Source: Methanosarcina vacuolata Z-761
GTDB taxonomy: Archaea; Halobacteriota; Methanosarcinia; Methanosarcinales; Methanosarcinaceae
Direction: 5' to 3'
DNA length: 64,000 nt
Assembly: GCF_000969905.1 (NCBI RefSeq)
Contig: NZ_CP009520.1
Location: 3,906,001-3,970,000 of the forward strand
Shown here: positions 50,107 to 61,318 of the stretch, piece by piece
Position numbering within the stretch: the first letter of the stretch is position 1
Layout of the letters: each line of letters starts with the position of its first letter
Made by a program: the position numbers and the translations under genes
The notes under the pieces: model-generated
Told to the model about the DNA's origin: nothing
Databases searched by the model: none
Seen by the model: the letters and a program-made list of their open reading frames with translations, nothing else

Positions 50107-50697
50107 TCAATGCTTTACCAAATCAAGAACTTCTATGTCATCAGCCAATTTTGGAATCACGTTGTGTTCAGCTCCGATGAACAAAATTCCAGTTTCTTCG
50201 TTCTCCAGAGTTTTGTTTATCCTTGAAGCTATGTATGCATCCCTTTGTTCAAGCAAAAAATCTTTTTTAGCAATATATCTCTTTTTTGCCTCTTCCTTTT
50301 CGGAAGTGGAAGAGACTTTTAACATATTAAGCAACAAATTACGTTCTTCAATTAGAAGCTCAGGATTTTCAGTGGCAATGATCCTGGCTCCCTTTGCCAC
50401 CATTTTTTCAATAATCTGATAATTTTTACTTCCTAGCTCTGCTGTATTGTGAATAATTTTAATTCCCATTTCACCTTCACATGGCAAGCCGTCCTGATAA
50501 ATTCTAGTATTCTCAAGATTTAGATTGAGCCCAAAAATTTCCTTTTCAAGTTCATCCCAGAATTTTTCGATAAGCCTCTGATTATTTTCCCATTTTTCCC
50601 TGCCGAGTTTAGAAATAGCTACCTGTGTTAGTTCTTTACTTAAAGAACCCATATCTGCAGAGGTATGGACAATTCTTACATATACAAGCTTTCTCAT
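50107..50697 (-). CDS. Uncharacterised 196-residue protein beside the gas vesicle region
   Basis: 196 residues. It begins MRKLVYVRIVHTSADMGSLS, reads as alpha/beta with a helical middle and ends with a strand-turn pattern (ETGILFIGAEHNVIPKLADD). The final GAEHNV and the KIIHNTAELGSKNY segment could form a ligand or active site. There is no signal peptide or membrane segment. It lies downstream of the PadR-like regulator on the same strand. I do not recognise the family and assign no function. Confidence 0.7.
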   Translation of the reverse strand: MRKLVYVRIVHTSADMGSLSKELTQVAISKLGREKWENNQRLIEKFWDELEKEIFGLNLNLENTRIYQDGLPCEGEMGIKIIHNTAELGSKNYQIIEKMVAKGARIIATENPELLIEERNLLLNMLKVSSTSEKEEAKKRYIAKKDFLLEQRDAYIASRINKTLENEETGILFIGAEHNVIPKLADDIEVLDLVKH

Positions 50698-50798: not shown

Positions 50799-51167
50799 CT
50801 ATTCATCTATCCAAATTATAAAATACTCAAGAGCTTCTTTAAATTCTCTTAACCTTATATCGATTATCTGTTTCCCTATTTCTGTGGGAACATAATATTT
50901 TGTTCTCAGGTCACCTTTTACAGTATCGATTTCAAGCAAGTTCTGATCTTTCAATGCATACAATATAGAATATATTGCACTAGGGGATATGTAAACACGA
51001 TGTTTAAAAAAAAGTTCCTTTGCAATATCTTGCCCAGACATCGAATTATTCCTGATCGTAGAAAGTACTGCAACGTTCAGATGCTTCTTTAATATGTCTT
51101 CAATGTAAACATTTTGGGAATCCGATTCTCGGGCTTGAGTTATATGTTTCTCATTTTCAGGATCCAT
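50799..51167 (-). CDS. PadR-like winged-helix transcriptional regulator
   Basis: 122 residues; AAGGTGA precedes the ATG. Residues about 30-110 form a winged helix: LNVAVLSTIRNNSMSGQDIA, ISPSAIYSILYALKDQNLLE (recognition helix) and a wing RTKYYVPTEIGKQII, as in PadR-type regulators. The usual long C-terminal dimerisation helix is short here. It lies 880 bases downstream of the last gas vesicle gene on the same strand and may control that cluster or its own neighbour, but no operator is evident. Confidence 0.8.
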   Translation of the reverse strand: MDPENEKHITQARESDSQNVYIEDILKKHLNVAVLSTIRNNSMSGQDIAKELFFKHRVYISPSAIYSILYALKDQNLLEIDTVKGDLRTKYYVPTEIGKQIIDIRLREFKEALEYFIIWIDE

Positions 51168-52044: not shown

Positions 52045-52590
52045 CTATTCGCTATAAATTTTGCTTATAAGTGCGTCGTGAACATCTTCTATATCTGGAG
52101 CGTGTATCCAGAGGACATTGTTATTGTTAATCTTGATACACAATTCTTTCCTTTCTTTTTCCTCGTGAACATTTGTGACTAGAACGACTTCCAGTATATC
52201 TTTCAGTGCGATTTCGTACAATATTTTATTAAAGGCCTTGTGCCAGCCAAAAATTCTGCGATTTGTCAAATACATGTAACCATAATTCCAGGCTTTCCCC
52301 TGATCCTTAGAATAGGAACCAAAAAAATTCATTTTCGTTTCTTCTTCCGCCATAAGAGTTGGCGAAGTCACTCTATGTTCAAGTGCCCAGGCTCTTGTAC
52401 TCTGGTCAAACTGTTCAAATATGCCGTATTCAAGCATTGTTTCAATTCCAGCAGCTAATAGTCTGAGACTCAAGCCTATCAGGGGTACACCTGCAACTGT
52501 GATCAGAACATCGGCGTTTAAAACGAGTCCTTTGTTAAGTAACCTATCAAGAAGTTCCACTAAGGAGTCTTCTCCACGTTCCGGCATCAT
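52045..52590 (-). CDS. GvpA/J/M-family gas vesicle protein fused to a PH/GRAM-like domain
   Basis: 181 residues. Residues about 5-75 match the GvpA/J/M fold: LVELLDRLLNKGLVLNADVL, ITVAGVPLIGLSLRLLAAGI and an amphipathic ETMLEYGIF. Residues about 85-180 are unlike GvpM: GYMYLTNRRIFGWHKAFNKI followed by LYEIALKDILEVVLVTNVHE and ELCIKINNNNVLWIHAPDIE, the strand pattern and TNRRI signature of bacterial PH/GRAM/SHOCT-adjacent domains. The gene overlaps gvpL by ATGA and is last in the cluster, the usual place of gvpM. It may be a GvpM whose extra domain binds lipid or protein; this fusion is unusual. Confidence 0.8.
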   Translation of the reverse strand: MMPERGEDSLVELLDRLLNKGLVLNADVLITVAGVPLIGLSLRLLAAGIETMLEYGIFEQFDQSTRAWALEHRVTSPTLMAEEETKMNFFGSYSKDQGKAWNYGYMYLTNRRIFGWHKAFNKILYEIALKDILEVVLVTNVHEEKERKELCIKINNNNVLWIHAPDIEDVHDALISKIYSE

Positions 52591-53390
52591 GTATGTTCAA
52601 AATCCTTTTTAAGATCAATAAAGCTATAAGGTGACCAGGGTCCTGTAAACCTGACTGCAAAACCTTCATGTTCGTTTATTTGTTCAAGAACTTGCCCCAG
52701 ATTTTCAACATTTTCATTAGAAACGAGACAGGAAAGTGTAATCACAGATTTTTTACCTTTGAATTTCTCTGGAACATTGGATTTTTTTTCTTCAGGAACC
52801 GTCTCTTTTACATTCTCATGGATAGCTCTTCCAAATTCGGCTCCAAGTTTTGAAAGTTCCTTTGTTATTGCCTGATCTCGCCGAACATCAAACTGCTTCT
52901 GAAGGATGTAGCCTTTTCCTTTTGACATTCCTTGAATCTTTGTATTCAATTCTTGAAGTTCAGGGCTGTCTTTGAGGACCTTTTCAGCAAGAATTTTTGG
53001 ATCATAAAAAATTTGGACTAAATACTCTGCAGTACCACTTAATTTCTCAAGTTCACTTTTAAAGGGTTCATAATTTTTCTGCAGCCAGGATTTTATGGTT
53101 TCGTCATTCCCGAGTGCGACACATCCAAACGAAAATGGAAGCAAAGTACCAAATTTTTCAGTCATCTTATCGATTGCATAGTTATGAGTGAATACCCATT
53201 CTTTTGCTTGCTGTTCATCCTTTGCTGGTTCGGGTTTCTTTTCTAAAAAATGCACAGCTGCAGCAATGTCTTTATAGACAATTGTATACACAGGATTGTC
53301 ATCAATCCCAATCGTCCCCAGGTTCTGTTCAGTAGCTGTATTGAGAATCGAGTAAACATAAAGGCAGTTTTCCTGTTCTGTTTCGTTCAT
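52587..53390 (-). CDS. gvpL: Gas vesicle protein GvpF/L family
   Basis: 267 residues from ATG 53390, preceded by GAGGAAG; an in-frame TTG at 53408 overlaps that signal and is less likely. The N-terminal ferredoxin-like half begins CLYVYSILNTATEQNLGTIG and has the family HNYAIDKMTEKFGTLLPFSF motif near residue 85. The C-terminal half ends GFAVRFTGPWSPYSFIDLKK, the GPWPPYSF signature. GvpF/L proteins contact GvpA at vesicle nucleation. I name it gvpL from its position after gvpK and its larger size; a shorter paralogue lies at 56072-56731. Confidence 0.9.
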   Translation of the reverse strand: MNETEQENCLYVYSILNTATEQNLGTIGIDDNPVYTIVYKDIAAAVHFLEKKPEPAKDEQQAKEWVFTHNYAIDKMTEKFGTLLPFSFGCVALGNDETIKSWLQKNYEPFKSELEKLSGTAEYLVQIFYDPKILAEKVLKDSPELQELNTKIQGMSKGKGYILQKQFDVRRDQAITKELSKLGAEFGRAIHENVKETVPEEKKSNVPEKFKGKKSVITLSCLVSNENVENLGQVLEQINEHEGFAVRFTGPWSPYSFIDLKKDFEHT

Positions 53391-53399
53391 TTTAATCGG

Positions 53400-53560
53400 C
53401 TTCCTCAATCCACCCTATTGGATTTAATAATTTTACAATTACCTCGTCTACTACCTTATCAAGTCCGTCCCGCACAGAATAAACACAAATTCAAATGCAT
53501 TATTAGCTTTTACCATCCTCAAGTCGTCATGCAGATCCAAATTGAGTTAATTCCAATAGG
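53400..53560 (-). pseudogene. Decayed duplicate of the gvpK 3' end
   Basis: The stretch aligns base by base with the end of intact gvpK at 53755-53900: TATCAAGTCCGTCCCGCACA here versus GATCAAGTCCTTCCCGCACA there, and similar runs on both sides. On the minus strand it encodes a remnant ending NPIGWIEEA, matching NPRWWAEEV of GvpK, but stop codons and small indels break the frame. It lies between gvpK and gvpL, and its last bases provide the GAGG before gvpL. This is best explained as a tandem duplication of gvpK followed by loss. Confidence 0.75.
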
Positions 53561-53690: not shown

Positions 53691-54062
53691 TTAGTGGCTG
53701 TATTGAGAATCAAGTATCGGTAAAGTATGTTCGTCGTCGCGTAGTTCACCATTTTTTACTTCTTCAGCCCACCACCTTGGGTTTAAGAATTTGTCGACTA
53801 CATCATCTACAACTTGATCAAGTCCTTCCCGCACAGAAGCAACACAATTCTCAAGTGCGTTATCCTCTTTTATTCTCTCAAGTGCTTCATGCAAGTCTGA
53901 AAGAGCCGCTCCTAGCCTTTCAATCTCTTCGTCGCTCAAAGATTCATTTTCGATTCTCAATAATGCCTGTTTTTCGAGTAAGTCCTGAATAATCTCAACA
54001 AGAGCCACAACAAGGCCTAATAATCCCTTCTTTAAATTATCCTCATCAATTGTGATTGTCAT
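53691..54062 (-). CDS. gvpK: Gas vesicle protein GvpK
   Basis: 123 residues. Typical GvpK motifs are present: DEDNLKKGLLGLVVALVEII, QDLLEKQALLRIENESLSDE, EIERLGAALSDLHEALERI and the C-terminal NPRWWAEE. It is a small helical assembly protein required for vesicle formation. Its start overlaps the end of gvpH by 17 bases, indicating coupled translation. Confidence 0.93.
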   Translation of the reverse strand: MTITIDEDNLKKGLLGLVVALVEIIQDLLEKQALLRIENESLSDEEIERLGAALSDLHEALERIKEDNALENCVASVREGLDQVVDDVVDKFLNPRWWAEEVKNGELRDDEHTLPILDSQYSH

Positions 54063-54714
54063 TGTTTTCCCTTTTTATCTTAAGCTGAAGTACCCCGTTT
54101 TTGTAGCTTTTCTCTTCGATGGACCCCGATTTACATGGCAACGATATTTTCTTACTATAGACACCGGCAGAAATATCCAGCGTATCGCCTTGAATTTCTA
54201 TGTTTATGTCCTTCTCTTCTACATCAGGAATTTGAGCTATTACATAAACAGAATCCTGTTTTTCAAATACATCAAAAATCGGTCCGGATGGTTCTGGAGC
54301 TTCGACGGTTACATTTTTTATATTTCTTGAAGCTCTACCTGGACTTTTAGAAGATTCATTTCTAGAGGGCATAGGTCTTATGGACAGTCCATAGCTCACT
54401 ACTGGTTTGCTGCTCCAGCCGGTTTCAAGCCTGTGCTTTATTTCCATATCTGTTTCAGCAATTCTCTGCCTGAATTCCGGGGAACTATTCTCAAGGATCT
54501 TTACAATTTTCCCGAAGCCCGGAATTGATCCCACGATATCTTCTACAAAGCTGGGATGTTCATAATCTGTAGCTCTGTTTTCTTTTTCTTCAAGTTTCTG
54601 TTCAAGTTCTTTAATTCTATTCCCCAGGTCCTGGATTTTAGTTTCTAGATCTTCAGCTTTTGTATCACTTTTTGTTTCTTCCTCTTTGTTATCCTTTTCA
54701 TCATCATTACCCAT
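54046..54714 (-). CDS. gvpH: Hsp20-like gas vesicle protein GvpH
   Basis: 222 residues. Residues 1-60 are highly charged and coiled-coil-like (DLETKIQDLGNRIKELEQKL). The middle carries SFVEDIVGSIPGFGKIVKIL. Residues about 140-218 form an alpha-crystallin-like beta sandwich (FDVFEKQDSVYVIAQIPDVE, INIEIQGDTLDISA, YKNGVLQLKIKRE with the G-V-L motif). GvpH is thought to chaperone or stabilise vesicle assembly. It lies between gvpJ and gvpK. Confidence 0.88.
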   Translation of the reverse strand: MGNDDEKDNKEEETKSDTKAEDLETKIQDLGNRIKELEQKLEEKENRATDYEHPSFVEDIVGSIPGFGKIVKILENSSPEFRQRIAETDMEIKHRLETGWSSKPVVSYGLSIRPMPSRNESSKSPGRASRNIKNVTVEAPEPSGPIFDVFEKQDSVYVIAQIPDVEEKDINIEIQGDTLDISAGVYSKKISLPCKSGSIEEKSYKNGVLQLKIKRENNDNHN

Positions 54715-54803: not shown

Positions 54804-55214
54804 TTAATTTTGCTCCTCAAGTGTGGAGTTTCCTTCTTGCTCAATCTCAATGTAACTTGCAGGGATTATTGCACGTTTTTTCTTAGAAAGTGGGCTTGTC
54901 CATCCACAGATTGGGCACCCTTTTTCAATTAAAAGCTTTTCTTCCCTTCGATTTCCACATTCCGGGCAATAAGCATGGGCTTCGTGTACTTTCTCCCAGG
55001 CCGGGGTATCAATCTTTGTTCCTGAAGGGAACTCGAGCCCATATTTTGCTGCGGTTTCAAAGGATGCCAGAGTAGCTGTAATTTTAACTCCAAGAAGCTC
55101 AGTTCCTGCGATAGATACTGAAATATCAGCATTCAGTACAAGTCCTTTATCCAGAATCCTATCTATTACATCCGCAAGTCCGCCGGTTTCCCTGACAACA
55201 CTTCCGTTGCTCAT
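54804..55214 (-). CDS. gvpJ: GvpJ-type gas vesicle protein with C-terminal zinc ribbon
   Basis: 136 residues from ATG 55214 (MSNGSVV); an upstream in-frame start at 55244 is untypical. Residues about 8-75 are the GvpA/J fold: LADVIDRILDKGLVLNADIS, VSIAGTELLGVKITATLASF and ETAAKYGLEF. Residues about 80-115 contain AYCPECGN and, after 15 residues, GCPICGW, a four-Cys zinc ribbon. The last 20 residues are acidic. Ordinary GvpJ lacks a zinc ribbon as far as I know, so this may be a nucleation/tip protein with an added binding module. Confidence 0.85.
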   Translation of the reverse strand: MSNGSVVRETGGLADVIDRILDKGLVLNADISVSIAGTELLGVKITATLASFETAAKYGLEFPSGTKIDTPAWEKVHEAHAYCPECGNRREEKLLIEKGCPICGWTSPLSKKKRAIIPASYIEIEQEGNSTLEEQN

Positions 55215-55275
55215 ATTATTCCTCCGTTCATAGTATTTCCTCAATTGATTATCTCAGGGACTTTTTTATATCTCG

Positions 55276-55507: not shown

Positions 55508-55816
55508 TTATTTTCTTCTTTTTAAGTGGCTTGTTACAGGGCTCTTGGTCAAAAGTTTTGGGTAAATTTTTAGAGTATGGAAGTCATTGGGTTTTGTATC
55601 AATCGTGATACTGTAACCATACTCAGCTTTCGAGCTAAAAGGCCCTTTAGTTGTGCCAGATCCGGATTTTTGACTGATATTTTGAGTCTCCATTTCCTCA
55701 AGTAATTTTAGAAAATTGAATAACTTGGAAGGTTTTTCTTCGGTTGTTAGCGATTTTGAATTCTCTTTTTCCTTTCCATGCAATGGTTTATCAGGACAAG
55801 ATGTCGGTTCTGACAT
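55508..55816 (-). CDS. Small basic protein of the gas vesicle cluster, unrecognised
   Basis: 102 residues from ATG 55816 (MSEPTSC), which lies inside the end of gvpG; an upstream in-frame start at 55846 is possible. The chain is hydrophilic with KPSKLFNFLKLLEEMETQNI as the only likely helix and YGYSITIDTKPNDFHTLKIY as a likely strand pair, ending in a basic tail LKRRK. The position between gvpG and gvpJ corresponds to gvpH/gvpI in haloarchaeal clusters, and GvpI is a small basic protein, so it could be GvpI-like. I cannot see sequence proof. Confidence 0.6.
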   Translation of the reverse strand: MSEPTSCPDKPLHGKEKENSKSLTTEEKPSKLFNFLKLLEEMETQNISQKSGSGTTKGPFSSKAEYGYSITIDTKPNDFHTLKIYPKLLTKSPVTSHLKRRK

Positions 55817-56072
55817 TGAGATTCGTCTCCAATACTCTTTCTGCAAATTTTAGTTGTCTCATAAGCTCGGCTTTACTTTCCTCATATTCTTCTCTTGAGA
55901 GCTCATCAAACTCATAGAGCATTTGGTTTTCCTTGATCTTGTTTTTAATTTTATCAACATTATAAAGTTCCTTATAAGCAAAGTCCTTTATTATTTCAAT
56001 GTTTGAAATAAGGTCGAGTCCAGGGATTTCAATTCCTAGCATCCTCAGAAAAAGATCATCAAAGAAAAACAT
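55791..56072 (-). CDS. gvpG: Gas vesicle protein GvpG
   Basis: 93 residues. It starts FFFDDLFLRMLGIEIPGLDL, close to the family start, and continues as a charged helical protein (EEYEESKAELMRQLKFAERV). It overlaps the gvpF stop by one base and the downstream small gene by 26 bases. GvpG is an accessory nucleation protein that interacts with GvpF and GvpL. Confidence 0.9.
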   Translation of the reverse strand: MFFFDDLFLRMLGIEIPGLDLISNIEIIKDFAYKELYNVDKIKNKIKENQMLYEFDELSREEYEESKAELMRQLKFAERVLETNLNVRTDILS

Positions 56073-56731
56073 TACCTGAAGCCACCTTTTTTATTAGATA
56101 AAATATGTATATCTACAAAGTTATAGGGAGGCCAGGGCCCACTATATTGAAATTTATACTCAGGATATTTTAGTTTAAGCTTTTCAACCTCACCTGAGAA
56201 ATCCTGAACTTTTTCCTTATCTATAAGATAAGAAGTATTCATCAAAAGACGAGAACTGAAAAGGTTAAGAGTTTTCGAATGGGAAGCTATTTCCTCAAGC
56301 CTTTCAGTTGATTCGGACTTACATTGTTCCATTTTTTGATTGTCAATCTTAGCGTCTTTTGGCAAAAAAATTTTTATCCCGAGTTCAACTTTATTATCCA
56401 CAATTGTAATGGCTTTTTTAATAGCTTTTTTTCCAGCCCTCATGGATACTTCGATCAATTTCTTGTTTTTAAATATCATTCCATAAGCTACCGGAATAAT
56501 ACTGTAATGTTTCATTACTTCATTGACAACATTTTGATGAATACTTATTTCCTCTTCATCATCAATCTCGTATTTTTTGAAGGGTTCATTGCTTACAACA
56601 GGACAAAAATCATTGCAATCCAGCGTGTATACCTCATGTCCTTGAAAACCTATATTACCAAAGTTAATAGCTTCCTCGGGGGATTTGATTATGCAGTAGA
56701 CATATTTACTATTTTCAGGAGCACTCTTCAT
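56072..56731 (-). CDS. gvpF: Gas vesicle protein GvpF
   Basis: 219 residues, GvpF/L family. The start KYVYCIIKSPEEAINFGNIG resembles GvpF, VNEVMKHYSIIPVAYGMIF is the conserved middle motif and the C-terminus is KFQYSGPWPPYNFVDIHIL. It is shorter than the paralogue at 52587, as GvpF is than GvpL. GvpF binds GvpA and is needed at the start of vesicle growth. It begins the gvpF-gvpG-...-gvpM part of the cluster and is preceded by a 364-base spacer that may carry its own promoter. Confidence 0.92.
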   Translation of the reverse strand: MKSAPENSKYVYCIIKSPEEAINFGNIGFQGHEVYTLDCNDFCPVVSNEPFKKYEIDDEEEISIHQNVVNEVMKHYSIIPVAYGMIFKNKKLIEVSMRAGKKAIKKAITIVDNKVELGIKIFLPKDAKIDNQKMEQCKSESTERLEEIASHSKTLNLFSSRLLMNTSYLIDKEKVQDFSGEVEKLKLKYPEYKFQYSGPWPPYNFVDIHILSNKKGGFR

Positions 56732-57095: not shown

Positions 57096-57392
57096 TTATT
57101 CTTCTTGCGTGAACATATCACTTCTTCGCCGCATTCCGATTTTACTATAGTCTATTATATCCATATTTGAGTTAAGTTTCATTTCATAAATGCTCAATAT
57201 GTCCTGCGAGTCGGGAATTGATTTTCGTTCAAGGACCTCTACCAGGAGTTTAAGTATACCTTCTTCTCTGGACATACTTACAACCCCCTCAGCTTTTTTT
57301 CTAGTAATGCTTTCGATCAATGATGTTGCGTTATTAAGTTCTTCCATCAGTGAATTTATCTTAATCCCATCTTCTTTAACATTAGCGCTCAT
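57096..57392 (-). CDS. gvpO: Gas vesicle protein GvpO
   Basis: 98 residues; AAGGAG precedes the ATG. Family features are the helical N-terminus (ITRKKAEGVVSMSREEG), LLVEVLERKSIPDSQDILSI and YEMKLNSNMDIIDYSKIGMR ending with a basic patch. GvpO is an essential accessory protein in haloarchaea. It lies downstream of gvpN as usual. Confidence 0.88.
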   Translation of the reverse strand: MSANVKEDGIKINSLMEELNNATSLIESITRKKAEGVVSMSREEGILKLLVEVLERKSIPDSQDILSIYEMKLNSNMDIIDYSKIGMRRRSDMFTQEE

Positions 57393-57612: not shown

Positions 57613-58992
57613 TTATGCAAGTTCTGAAACTGCTTTATCTACGAGTTTCTCGTTCTTGATTACCTTTGCAGGATCTTGTTTTTTATTAATTTCAGGGGTT
57701 GTTTTACTTGCGGTTTTTTCTGTCTTGATCATCGGCGCTGGATCTTGCTTTTTATCAACCGCAGGAGCTGGTTTGCTTACGGTTTTTTCTGTCTTGATCA
57801 CCGGTGCTGGATCTTGCTTCTTATTAACCGCAGGAGCTGTTTTACTTACAGTTTTTTCTGCCTTGATCACCGGTACCGGATCTTGCTTCTTATTAATCTC
57901 TGGGGCTGTTTTATCTACGGACTTATCGGTCTCATGCATTTCAGCGTTGGAACTCTCTTTTTCTGAATTAAGCTCTAAAATAACTTCATTTACAATCTTC
58001 TCTTTCTTAAGAAGCTCTGCATTGGAACTTGTTTTAGTTGCAATCACATCGACAAACAATTGATCAAAATAATCTTTTGTATTGCCGTTCAGTTTTTTCA
58101 TAGCTTTTCCAACCATAATGCCGGACCTGATTCCAGGTTTCTGGACATCATCAGTTTGGTCCCTGATCTTCCGGATGATTGATACAATTTTTTCAGTGTC
58201 TTTCTCCGGAAGGCCTGTATGTTCTTTTACTATCTGGACCTCGGTTTCAAAGCTATAGTAGTCCATGTATATGCCCACCATTCGATCCAGTAAAGCATCC
58301 TGAGGAACGTGAACTCCTGCATATTCAATTGAATTACTTGTCAGAATTGCCCTGAAATCCGGATGCACTTTGATGTATTTTTCCCCACCAAACCTGGATG
58401 GTAATTCAAGGATTCCTTCTTCAAAAACCGAAAGTAAAACGTTGTTTGCAATTGGCTTTGCCCTGGAAAACTCATTATATATGAGGGTATATCCGTATCT
58501 ACATGCAATAGCCAGAGGATTGTCAATCCACTCGGGCTTTATAATGTCTGAACTTTTAAAAACATTATGAATATAATTATCTCTGACAGATTCCTGCTTG
58601 ATTTGAGCATATCCACCTATGAGATCCTTTGTTGTAAGTGACTCATCCCCATTAATCCATATAACAGGGCGTCCAATTTCTTTTGCAATATGTACAGCAA
58701 GACTTGTTTTTCCACAGCCTGTAGGGCCAATTAAATGAACGGGATATCCGACTTTTATCCACAATTTAATTCTTTCACTTAATTTCTGGATTTCAGTATT
58801 ATTTATAAAATATTCCATTTCAGGAACAAGGTACTTCTTTTCTTCAGAGCAGTTTTTCAAATTTACACTATATGGAAGTGGTTCCTTTATGGGATTCAGG
58901 TCCTCAGTGTCTGATTCCTGTTTTGTTTCCTCTAAAGTTTTGTGAATAGGTTTACCTCTTACTATTCTCTGATGCGTTGCTTTATATTTCAT
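57613..58992 (-). CDS. gvpN: Gas vesicle AAA+ ATPase GvpN with repetitive C-terminal tail
   Basis: 460 residues from ATG 58992, preceded by GAGGAAAG; the longer frame from 59076 lacks a signal. The MoxR/GvpN-type AAA+ domain has Walker A LIGPTGCGKTSLAVHIAKEI, GYTLIYNEFSRAKPIANNVL as Walker B/sensor region, and FRAILTSNSIEYAGVHVPQD. Residues about 365-455 are a tail of four tandem repeats of about 24 residues, each containing NKKQDPAPVIKTEKTVSK-like sequence, encoded by near-identical DNA. GvpN drives elongation of vesicles by ATP hydrolysis. The tail is not part of the ordinary family and may be disordered. Confidence 0.93.
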   Translation of the reverse strand: MKYKATHQRIVRGKPIHKTLEETKQESDTEDLNPIKEPLPYSVNLKNCSEEKKYLVPEMEYFINNTEIQKLSERIKLWIKVGYPVHLIGPTGCGKTSLAVHIAKEIGRPVIWINGDESLTTKDLIGGYAQIKQESVRDNYIHNVFKSSDIIKPEWIDNPLAIACRYGYTLIYNEFSRAKPIANNVLLSVFEEGILELPSRFGGEKYIKVHPDFRAILTSNSIEYAGVHVPQDALLDRMVGIYMDYYSFETEVQIVKEHTGLPEKDTEKIVSIIRKIRDQTDDVQKPGIRSGIMVGKAMKKLNGNTKDYFDQLFVDVIATKTSSNAELLKKEKIVNEVILELNSEKESSNAEMHETDKSVDKTAPEINKKQDPVPVIKAEKTVSKTAPAVNKKQDPAPVIKTEKTVSKPAPAVDKKQDPAPMIKTEKTASKTTPEINKKQDPAKVIKNEKLVDKAVSELA

Positions 58993-59694
58993 TTTTCTTT
59001 CCTCTTTTTTGTAATTACAGTCTTCAATATTTGTTTTATATCGGGCTATTACCTTGTGCTTTGAGGCAAAAAACACAGTTTTAAAATTACTAAATTTAAT
59101 ATTGTGAAAGTGTGATCGAACAATCAGTAGTATAATGAATATAAAATTTCAAAAGACTGTTTCTCCATTGTTTCTTGCAGGCAATCTTCTCTCAAACGAT
59201 GACCTATGAATTATACAGTTTTTTATTACCCATGCAAAGTCGCAAAGAGCCACAGATCTTTTGAAATTGTCTTCGGTTAAGACGTGAAATACCAGGGGAT
59301 GATTTGTATCCTCTTTAAATTGGGTGTAAAACAGTAAATTATATCTGTGGAAACGCAAATAAGAAAATGTAAGTTCTGGAGTAATAACACAAGTAAAAGA
59401 GTGATAAAACTCTTTTAGAGTGTAATGAAAATATTCTTATATTTAGAATGCTTATCACCAAATCTAAAGAGTATACTTTTATTATGAGTATTCACTTTGG
59501 AGTCGATAAACTCTCCTTAAAGGGACTATTACAAAATAACTTCCTCAATGCTCTAATTTGTTGTCTGGTAATTAACTCCAAAAGCTTTGAAATAATACGC
59601 TTGAGGTAGAGTTATTGAATTTGTTATTTTGGTGTGGATCCCAACCGAATACAAGTGGATTTTCTATTCTTTTTAAACTCTCTGCATCCACAGA
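58993..59694. other. Intergenic region between gvpN and the coiled-coil gene
   Basis: About 700 bases. An open frame of 69 codons at 59149-59358 starts at TTG without a ribosome-binding site and is probably not a gene. The rest is AT-rich with no repeat or RNA that I can identify; a promoter for gvpN may lie here. Confidence 0.5.
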
Positions 59695-60555: not shown

Positions 60556-60786
60556 TTATGCTGCAATTACTGGTTTTTCCTCTCTTGCAGCAATTTCGAT
60601 TTTTGTAATCTCTTCTGCATAGTGCAGGAAAGTGTCAACAGATGCGACAACAACTCTTGCTTCAATAGCCAGTATTTCAATGCCAACAAGTGAGACTCTT
60701 GCCCATGTGTCAACAACTATACCTTTATCGAGAATTCTGTCAAGCACTTCTGCTAGACTGGAACAGTCTGGACTCTGTGAAACCAT
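60556..60786 (-). CDS. gvpA: Major gas vesicle structural protein GvpA (copy 3)
   Basis: 76 residues. The GvpA fold is clear: [40 protein letters not shown] and [14 protein letters not shown]. It forms the ribs of the hollow vesicle wall. It differs from the two upstream copies only by Cys for Ser at residue 8. The start has a weak AAGTGAT signal. It is the most promoter-distal of the three. Confidence 0.97.
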
Positions 60787-60820
60787 TTATATCACTTCCA
60801 ATTTTTCTATTTTTTAGAAA

Positions 60821-61051
60821 TTATGCTGCAATGACTGGTTTTTCTTCTCTTGCAGCAATTTCTATTTTTGTAATCTCTTCTGCATAGTGCAGGAAAGTGT
60901 CAACAGATGCGACAACAACTCTTGCTTCAATAGCCAGTATTTCAATGCCGACAAGTGAGACTCTTGCCCATGTGTCAACAACTATACCTTTATCGAGAAT
61001 TCTGTCAAGCACTTCTGCTAGACTGGAACTGTCTGGACTCTGTGATACCAT
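60821..61051 (-). CDS. gvpA: Major gas vesicle structural protein GvpA (copy 2)
   Basis: 76 residues from ATG 61051 (the frame extends three codons further to 61060, but AGTGGT precedes 61051). The protein is identical to copy 1. Both the coding sequences and the roughly 35-base spacers are similar, so the three genes form a tandem duplication with units of about 266 bases. Confidence 0.97.
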
Positions 61052-61087
61052 TTTTACCACTTTCGATTTTTTTTATTTTTTTAGAAA

Positions 61088-61318
61088 TTATGCTGCAATT
61101 ACTGGTTTTTCCTCTCTTGCAGCAATTTCGATTTTTGTAATCTCTTCTGCATAGTGCAGGAAAGTGTCAACAGATGCGACAACAACTCTTGCTTCAATAG
61201 CCAGTATTTCAATGCCAACAAGTGAGACTCTTGCCCATGTGTCAACAACTATACCTTTATCGAGAATTCTGTCAAGCACTTCTGCTAGACTGGAACTGTC
61301 TGGACTCTGTGATACCAT
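61088..61318 (-). CDS. gvpA: Major gas vesicle structural protein GvpA (copy 1)
   Basis: 76 residues. It is the first gene of the cluster. GGTGAG lies six bases before the ATG and a TATA-like box lies about 110 bases upstream. The protein has the canonical GvpA helix-strand-strand-helix sequence. Three identical copies in a row probably raise expression of the main structural protein. Confidence 0.97.

Follow-up and report, generated by a model that had tools for sequence, protein, structure and literature searches.

Gas vesicles are the hollow floats of microbes. Their seeding is described as the least understood step of assembly (PMC11445434), and the stretch of the Methanosarcina vacuolata Z-761 genome analysed here (64,000 nucleotides, hereafter the window) raises a question about a protein that may take part in it: is the product of the gene that closes its gas vesicle (gvp) cluster a special fusion or GvpM in another form, and what would its C-terminal domain do? 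An earlier note, made from the window alone, had described a GvpM-like protein ending in a PH/GRAM-like part and had suggested that this part is a membrane- or partner-binding module. The open reading frame lies exactly where that note placed it, at 52045-52590 on the minus strand, and encodes 181 amino acids.

The gene is the last of an intact Methanosarcina gvp cluster and adjoins gvpL (Table 1). On the minus strand, the cluster runs from three gvpA genes through a coiled-coil ORF, gvpN, gvpO, gvpF, gvpG, a further ORF, gvpJ, the gvpH-like Hsp20 gene, gvpK, and gvpL to gvpM. The stop of gvpL and the start of gvpM share four bases (ATGA), so the two genes are probably translated jointly. The zinc ribbon that ends GvpJ in the window is common to the GvpJ of relatives in most of the lineage; at some Methanoperedens-type loci it is found in a separate or shifted ORF.

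Table 1. Features of the gvp cluster and its flank in the window
Feature	Position	Strand	Evidence
gvpM, 181 aa: GvpA/J/M-type head and PH-like tail	52045..52590	-	ORF and profile evidence
GvpM head, residues 1-73	52372..52590	-	Pfam Gas_vesicle PF00741, E 8.8e-15 (core residues 9-47); NF046091, 4.4e-24 (residues 1-66)
Predicted PH-superfold domain, residues 85-180, seven strands and C-terminal helix	52051..52338	-	AlphaFold2, Foldseek, VIA
gvpL, immediately upstream of gvpM	52587..53408	-	PF06386, 4e-55; NF045778 GvpL, 2.2e-58
gvpK	53691..54062	-	PF05121, 6.5e-18
gvpH-like Hsp20-domain protein	54046..54714	-	NF041800 Hsp20, 1.3e-18
gvpJ with C-terminal zinc ribbon (CPEC...CPIC)	54804..55244	-	PF00741, 3.5e-14; NF046090 GvpJ, 9e-28
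gvpG	55791..56072	-	PF05120, 7e-10
gvpF	56072..56731	-	PF06386, 7.9e-40
gvpO	57096..57392	-	PF05800, 3.7e-15
gvpN (AAA ATPase)	57613..59076	-	TIGR02640, 6e-102
Three tandem gvpA genes	60556..61318	-	PF00741 matches, own-genome search
Conserved neighbour, 196 aa; possible partner (unproven)	50107..50697	-	Co-occurrence with gvp clusters
PadR-like regulator, adjoining the gvp cluster	50799..51167	-	PF03551, 1e-7

The head of the protein identifies it. Its best NCBIfam model is halo_gas_GvpM (NF046091), at 84 bits versus 43.5 for GvpJ and about 35 for GvpA, and in a tree of 144 heads it shares a clade with haloarchaeal GvpM, with the clades of GvpA and GvpJ lying elsewhere. NF046091 is a model of the "exception" type, named for haloarchaea, and the score of the window protein lies under its curated cut-off of 109 bits; the claim made here is therefore one of orthology, not of membership of that model. 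Judged from best match, tree, and gene order, the window protein is a GvpM orthologue.

For the tail, a search with the single protein sequence was rejected as proof of a PH domain, being too weak by itself; the matter was settled by relatives and by a structural model. In the Pfam profile search of the isolated tail, PH appears at E 0.0045 with sialidase BNR repeats nearly equal, no single family exceeds its cut-off, and bPH_3 (PF14470) is not among the matches of the window protein. Among 24 members, bPH_3 weakly matches 11 (best E 0.0056) and Vps36 GLUE 6, and PH, GRAM, and CheF also recur; nearly all of the recurring weak matches are to PH-superfold families, with sialidase BNR repeats recurring in 3. 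GRAM (PF02893) weakly matches one member in the first PH copy (PH1; E 0.02) and four of five in the second copy that some relatives carry (PH2; best E 0.0021). Vps36 GLUE (PF11605) reaches 25.0 bits against the second copy of one relative, versus a gathering cut-off of 24.1, and 13.4 bits, under that cut-off, against the window protein. The profile search against bPH and GRAM families proposed in the earlier note thus puts no family over its cut-off for the tail taken singly, but the matches of 21-24 relatives recur within the PH superfold.

An AlphaFold2 model of the tail, built from a 21-sequence alignment, has seven strands and a C-terminal helix (pLDDT 88.8, pTM 0.79). Foldseek matches it to PH domains with probability 1.00 and E 1.9e-5, and VIA places it on the Vps36 GLUE domain with Z 15.0 and an rmsd of 2.5 A over 104 residues, and on GRK2, TAPP1, MTMR2, and other PH domains with Z 12-14.6. 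VIA rows within one Z unit count as tied, so no one PH subfamily stands out. When the full-length protein is modelled, confidence in the head is low (pLDDT about 45-60), and the model gives no domain orientation. Comparison of the tail profile with PDB sequences gave nothing significant, the best match (0.06) being BBS5, itself a PH-domain protein, and a viral fold search returned distant phage and giant-virus matches only. At the level of the predicted model, it is established that the tail is a PH-superfold domain, a seven-stranded beta sandwich capped by a C-terminal helix. The earlier description of an intact GvpA/J/M-type domain followed by a PH/GRAM-superfold domain is therefore borne out by PF00741, NF046091, AlphaFold2, Foldseek, VIA, and the matches of relatives. 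The "TNRRI-type" pattern named there forms part of a broader W-x(7)-T-x-x-R signature. Across the GvpM of the order, nine residues of the tail do not vary; the invariant positions, E82, G90, W100, T108, R111, and F113 among them (180-aa numbering), look like a fold signature.

Is the tail peculiar to this protein? Within the order, the window protein finds matches in 20 of 186 genomes, GvpM was recovered in 19, and all 21 GvpM from those 19 genomes carry the tail. An even sampling of the phylum (393 genomes) contains 56 genomes with Gas_vesicle genes, divided by the haloarchaeal GvpM model into 34 of presumed haloarchaeal type, all of which match that model and 33 of which pass its cut-off, and 22 others. 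No GvpM was recovered in two of the 22 (G073 and G366); the tail is present in 18 of the remaining 20. None of 30 haloarchaeal GvpM sequences examined has a PH-like tail; these proteins finish 1-74 residues past the head, in mostly hydrophilic sequence. Outside the phylum, tailed GvpM was found in two of 300 genomes of a Bathyarchaeota phylum sample (L097 and L127). One Bathyarchaeota MAG contig encodes a fusion of a GvpF/L protein with a DnaJ domain (L097:3044-4030; PF00226, 6.9e-15) and an Hsp70 gene lies beside the fusion gene (L097:4051-5820); an Hsp70-like ORF is also seen near the tailed gvpM of G511 (L127).

A scan of genome contigs with one conserved peptide pattern, which diverged bacterial members could escape, gave a single bacterial match, on a "Nitrospirae" MAG contig. 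We rejected it as a bacterial member: the contig is probably archaeal and mis-binned, because its gvpM groups with Methanoperedens-type proteins, because the neighbour gene known from the archaeal loci is present together with a gene for a CDC48-like ATPase, and because it is the sole match among 198 genomes of that phylum. A search for a bPH_3 source gene in the genome of M. vacuolata itself found none. The PH tail is thus the usual form of GvpM in methanogenic and methane-oxidising archaea, not a rare or special fusion. The earlier note was right that the domain is a separate one; what does not stand is its special status. As to whether all ordinary GvpM proteins share the tail, it is normal in the methanogen and ANME-type proteins but absent from all 30 haloarchaeal ones.

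The tail has been both multiplied and lost. Two tandem PH domains are present in the groups f10 and f17 and on the Bathyarchaeota contig L097; PH1 and PH2 are homologous (hhalign probability 98.4, against 0.2 for a reversed-sequence control). In f10, the second PH domain is followed by a zinc ribbon, the same that ends GvpJ in this lineage. The two genomes of the 20 without a tail (G281 and G310) have a shortened GvpM whose remaining end ("EGEEVVQKEKM" in G281) resembles the start of a second PH domain, so that the PH region looks to have been removed by internal deletion; the gene, at least, can therefore be kept without the domain. At these two loci (L106 and L107) an ArsA-like ATPase gene, recognised by eye, adjoins gvpM; ArsA homologues in bacterial gvp clusters have been described previously (PMC2963123). 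A second GvpM copy in G354 has lost the tail as well. Elsewhere, a PH-tail match (L052, G209:C95:1195-1413; 1.3e-14) contains three stops and is possibly a decayed gvpM; its genome gave no Gas_vesicle match. Two Methanosarcina genomes, G150 (L008/L027) and G177 (L009/L026), each encode two diverged PH-tailed GvpM, which suggests two gvp clusters of different origin.

The tail is conserved beyond chance, given its conservation across several archaeal families, its nine invariant residues, and a dN/dS mostly of 0.1-0.4. In 11 of 12 pairs, tail dN/dS is 0.09-0.39, with the head more constrained; the twelfth, whose members are nearly identical, gives 0.88 from very few differences. Which way the change ran is less firm. 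A tree of 76 head columns puts the haloarchaeal GvpM in a single group (SH-aLRT 99) inside the PH-tailed proteins; on that topology, haloarchaea would have lost the tail. Monophyly of all PH-tailed rows is not rejected (p-AU 0.29), and the tree is a quick one with many open forks; a test with the tail-lost rows added gave p-AU 0.004 but is disregarded, because a GvpJ (L044|+|825) had entered that set through the score cut-off. The textbook, tailless GvpM of haloarchaea may thus be the derived form, although this is not statistically secured.

Beyond the end of the cluster lies a gene for a 196-aa protein without a match in Pfam or NCBIfam. It occurs in 25 of 29 tested non-haloarchaeal genomes with gvp genes, often within a few kilobases of gvpM, and in none of 15 Methanosarcina genomes without gvp genes or of 30 haloarchaea with them, which makes it a candidate for a new gene associated with gas vesicles. 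It persists in the tail-lost G310 and is missing from the tailed G509 and G511, and is therefore not strictly tied to the tail. PadR-like ORFs, seen by eye, are also found near the gvp genes of L102 and L127. A broader scenario, possible in our judgement but doubtful, would make PH-tailed GvpM ancestral in archaea and the tailless haloarchaeal protein derived, with the PH domain, sometimes doubled and extended by a zinc ribbon, serving as an assembly hub that brings the accessory complex to the seed of the vesicle, and with the 196-aa neighbour as a new member of that machinery.

What the tail may do is judged in part from Halobacterium, in which gas vesicle formation requires GvpM and vesicles form without its last 25 amino acids (PMC8716928), the same residues that contact GvpF, GvpH, and GvpL (PMC8716928, PMC6107691). 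In Bacillus, GvpJ and the GvpM relative GvpS have been proposed as seeding and tip proteins (PMC11445434). The reading we favour, and to which we give somewhat better than even chances, is that the window protein is GvpM in the form used by methanogens and methane oxidisers, its head seeding the shell and its PH tail docking an accessory complex. As a low-copy GvpA paralogue, GvpM would act early in gas vesicle assembly; the head would insert in, or seed, the nascent shell, presumably at its tip, leaving the PH domain on the cytosolic face. There the domain would serve as a protein-docking platform that keeps a complex of GvpF, GvpH, and GvpL at the growing vesicle, and it may hold lineage-specific partners too. 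Some lineages carry the domain twice in tandem, which fits a modular docking unit. The haloarchaeal C-terminal peptide is short and hydrophilic, so its analogy with the PH tail is one of position only; and the dispensable Halobacterium C-terminus, together with the losses in some f10 genomes from an otherwise similar gene, suggests that the PH domain may have a modulating role and not be required.

The earlier note had offered two roles for the tail, and of these partner binding is the better supported, membrane anchoring weakly supported at best in view of charge and of the WNYG sequence discussed here. That the domain binds a membrane lipid such as archaetidylinositol, and so tethers nascent vesicles to the cell membrane, is rather improbable. 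PH and GRAM domains are commonly lipid-binding, the structural matches include the lipid-binding PH domains of TAPP1, GRK2, and MTMR2, and 19 of 24 relatives have a basic residue after the invariant Trp (WR/WK); the window protein and its closest relatives, however, lack that residue (WNYG), the net charge of the tail runs from -8 to +3 and is mostly negative, and the invariant residues resemble a fold signature. A phosphoinositide-binding PH domain would have a conserved basic pocket in its first beta hairpin; judged from sequence, the tail is acidic to neutral and the subclade of the window protein shows no conserved group of basic residues. PH-like domains of archaeal CheF (PMC9126983) and of the bacterial PHb type (PMC2817789) are argued to bind protein, not phosphoinositide, and are judged unlikely binders of phosphate or lipid. 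Docking to Gvp proteins is the likelier role because the domain is neutral to acidic, because the literature argues that the domains of archaeal CheF and the bacterial PH-like ones serve as platforms for proteins, and because GvpF, GvpH, and GvpL bind to this end of GvpM in Halobacterium.

The domain might instead be mainly a module for solubility or capping, which prevents aggregation of the hydrophobic head or stops ribs from growing at one face and has no specific partner. Haloarchaeal GvpM aggregates and GvpH is reported to prevent this (PMC7688916), the zinc ribbon of GvpJ and the PH domain of GvpM occupy the same C-terminal position on minor paralogues, and the tail evolves faster than the head; yet a gvpH-type chaperone gene is still present in the cluster, and purifying selection with invariant residues across several archaeal families suggests more than a bulk tag, so we hold this explanation to be unlikely. 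Least probable of all, and in our view very unlikely, is that the domain is an evolutionary passenger of little consequence for gas vesicle formation. The losses in G281, G310, and the second G354 copy, the tailless haloarchaeal proteins, and the dispensable end of Halobacterium GvpM (PMC8716928) would fit such a passenger, but the domain is kept in every Methanosarcinales GvpM found, is under purifying selection, and has been duplicated in other lineages.

A folded, conserved, and separable domain on a proposed seeding protein offers a direct experimental handle, as bait or for deletion and swap, and a possible fusion site for gas vesicle engineering. The result that the C-terminus of the tailless Halobacterium GvpM is dispensable may not extend to methanogens.

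A search of the open-access literature found no published description of a GvpM with a PH-type domain. The nearest known protein, GvpM of Halobacterium salinarum (NF046091), shares the head domain and the place beside gvpL at the end of gvpF-M, but it is 84 amino acids long (PMC9501494) and its haloarchaeal form has a short hydrophilic end in place of a PH domain. Bacillus GvpS is likewise a minor GvpA paralogue related to GvpM, a likeness taken from its description, which mentions no PH domain (PMC11445434). With bPH_3 (PF14470), GRAM, and Vps36 GLUE the tail has fold and weak sequence similarity in common, whereas the window protein lies under their curated cut-offs and joins the domain to one of gas vesicle wall type. 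CheF, the archaeal chemotaxis adaptor with two PH-like domains, is also an archaeal PH-like protein and is argued to be a platform (PMC9126983). A borrowing of the GvpM domain from CheF was considered and rejected: PH1, the copy present in the window, has no significant similarity to CheF (hhalign probability 1-4), and PH2 resembles the second PH domain of CheF only weakly (87.6). Set beside these systems, PH-tailed GvpM is a known protein with a new domain architecture, one that is widespread within part of the archaea.
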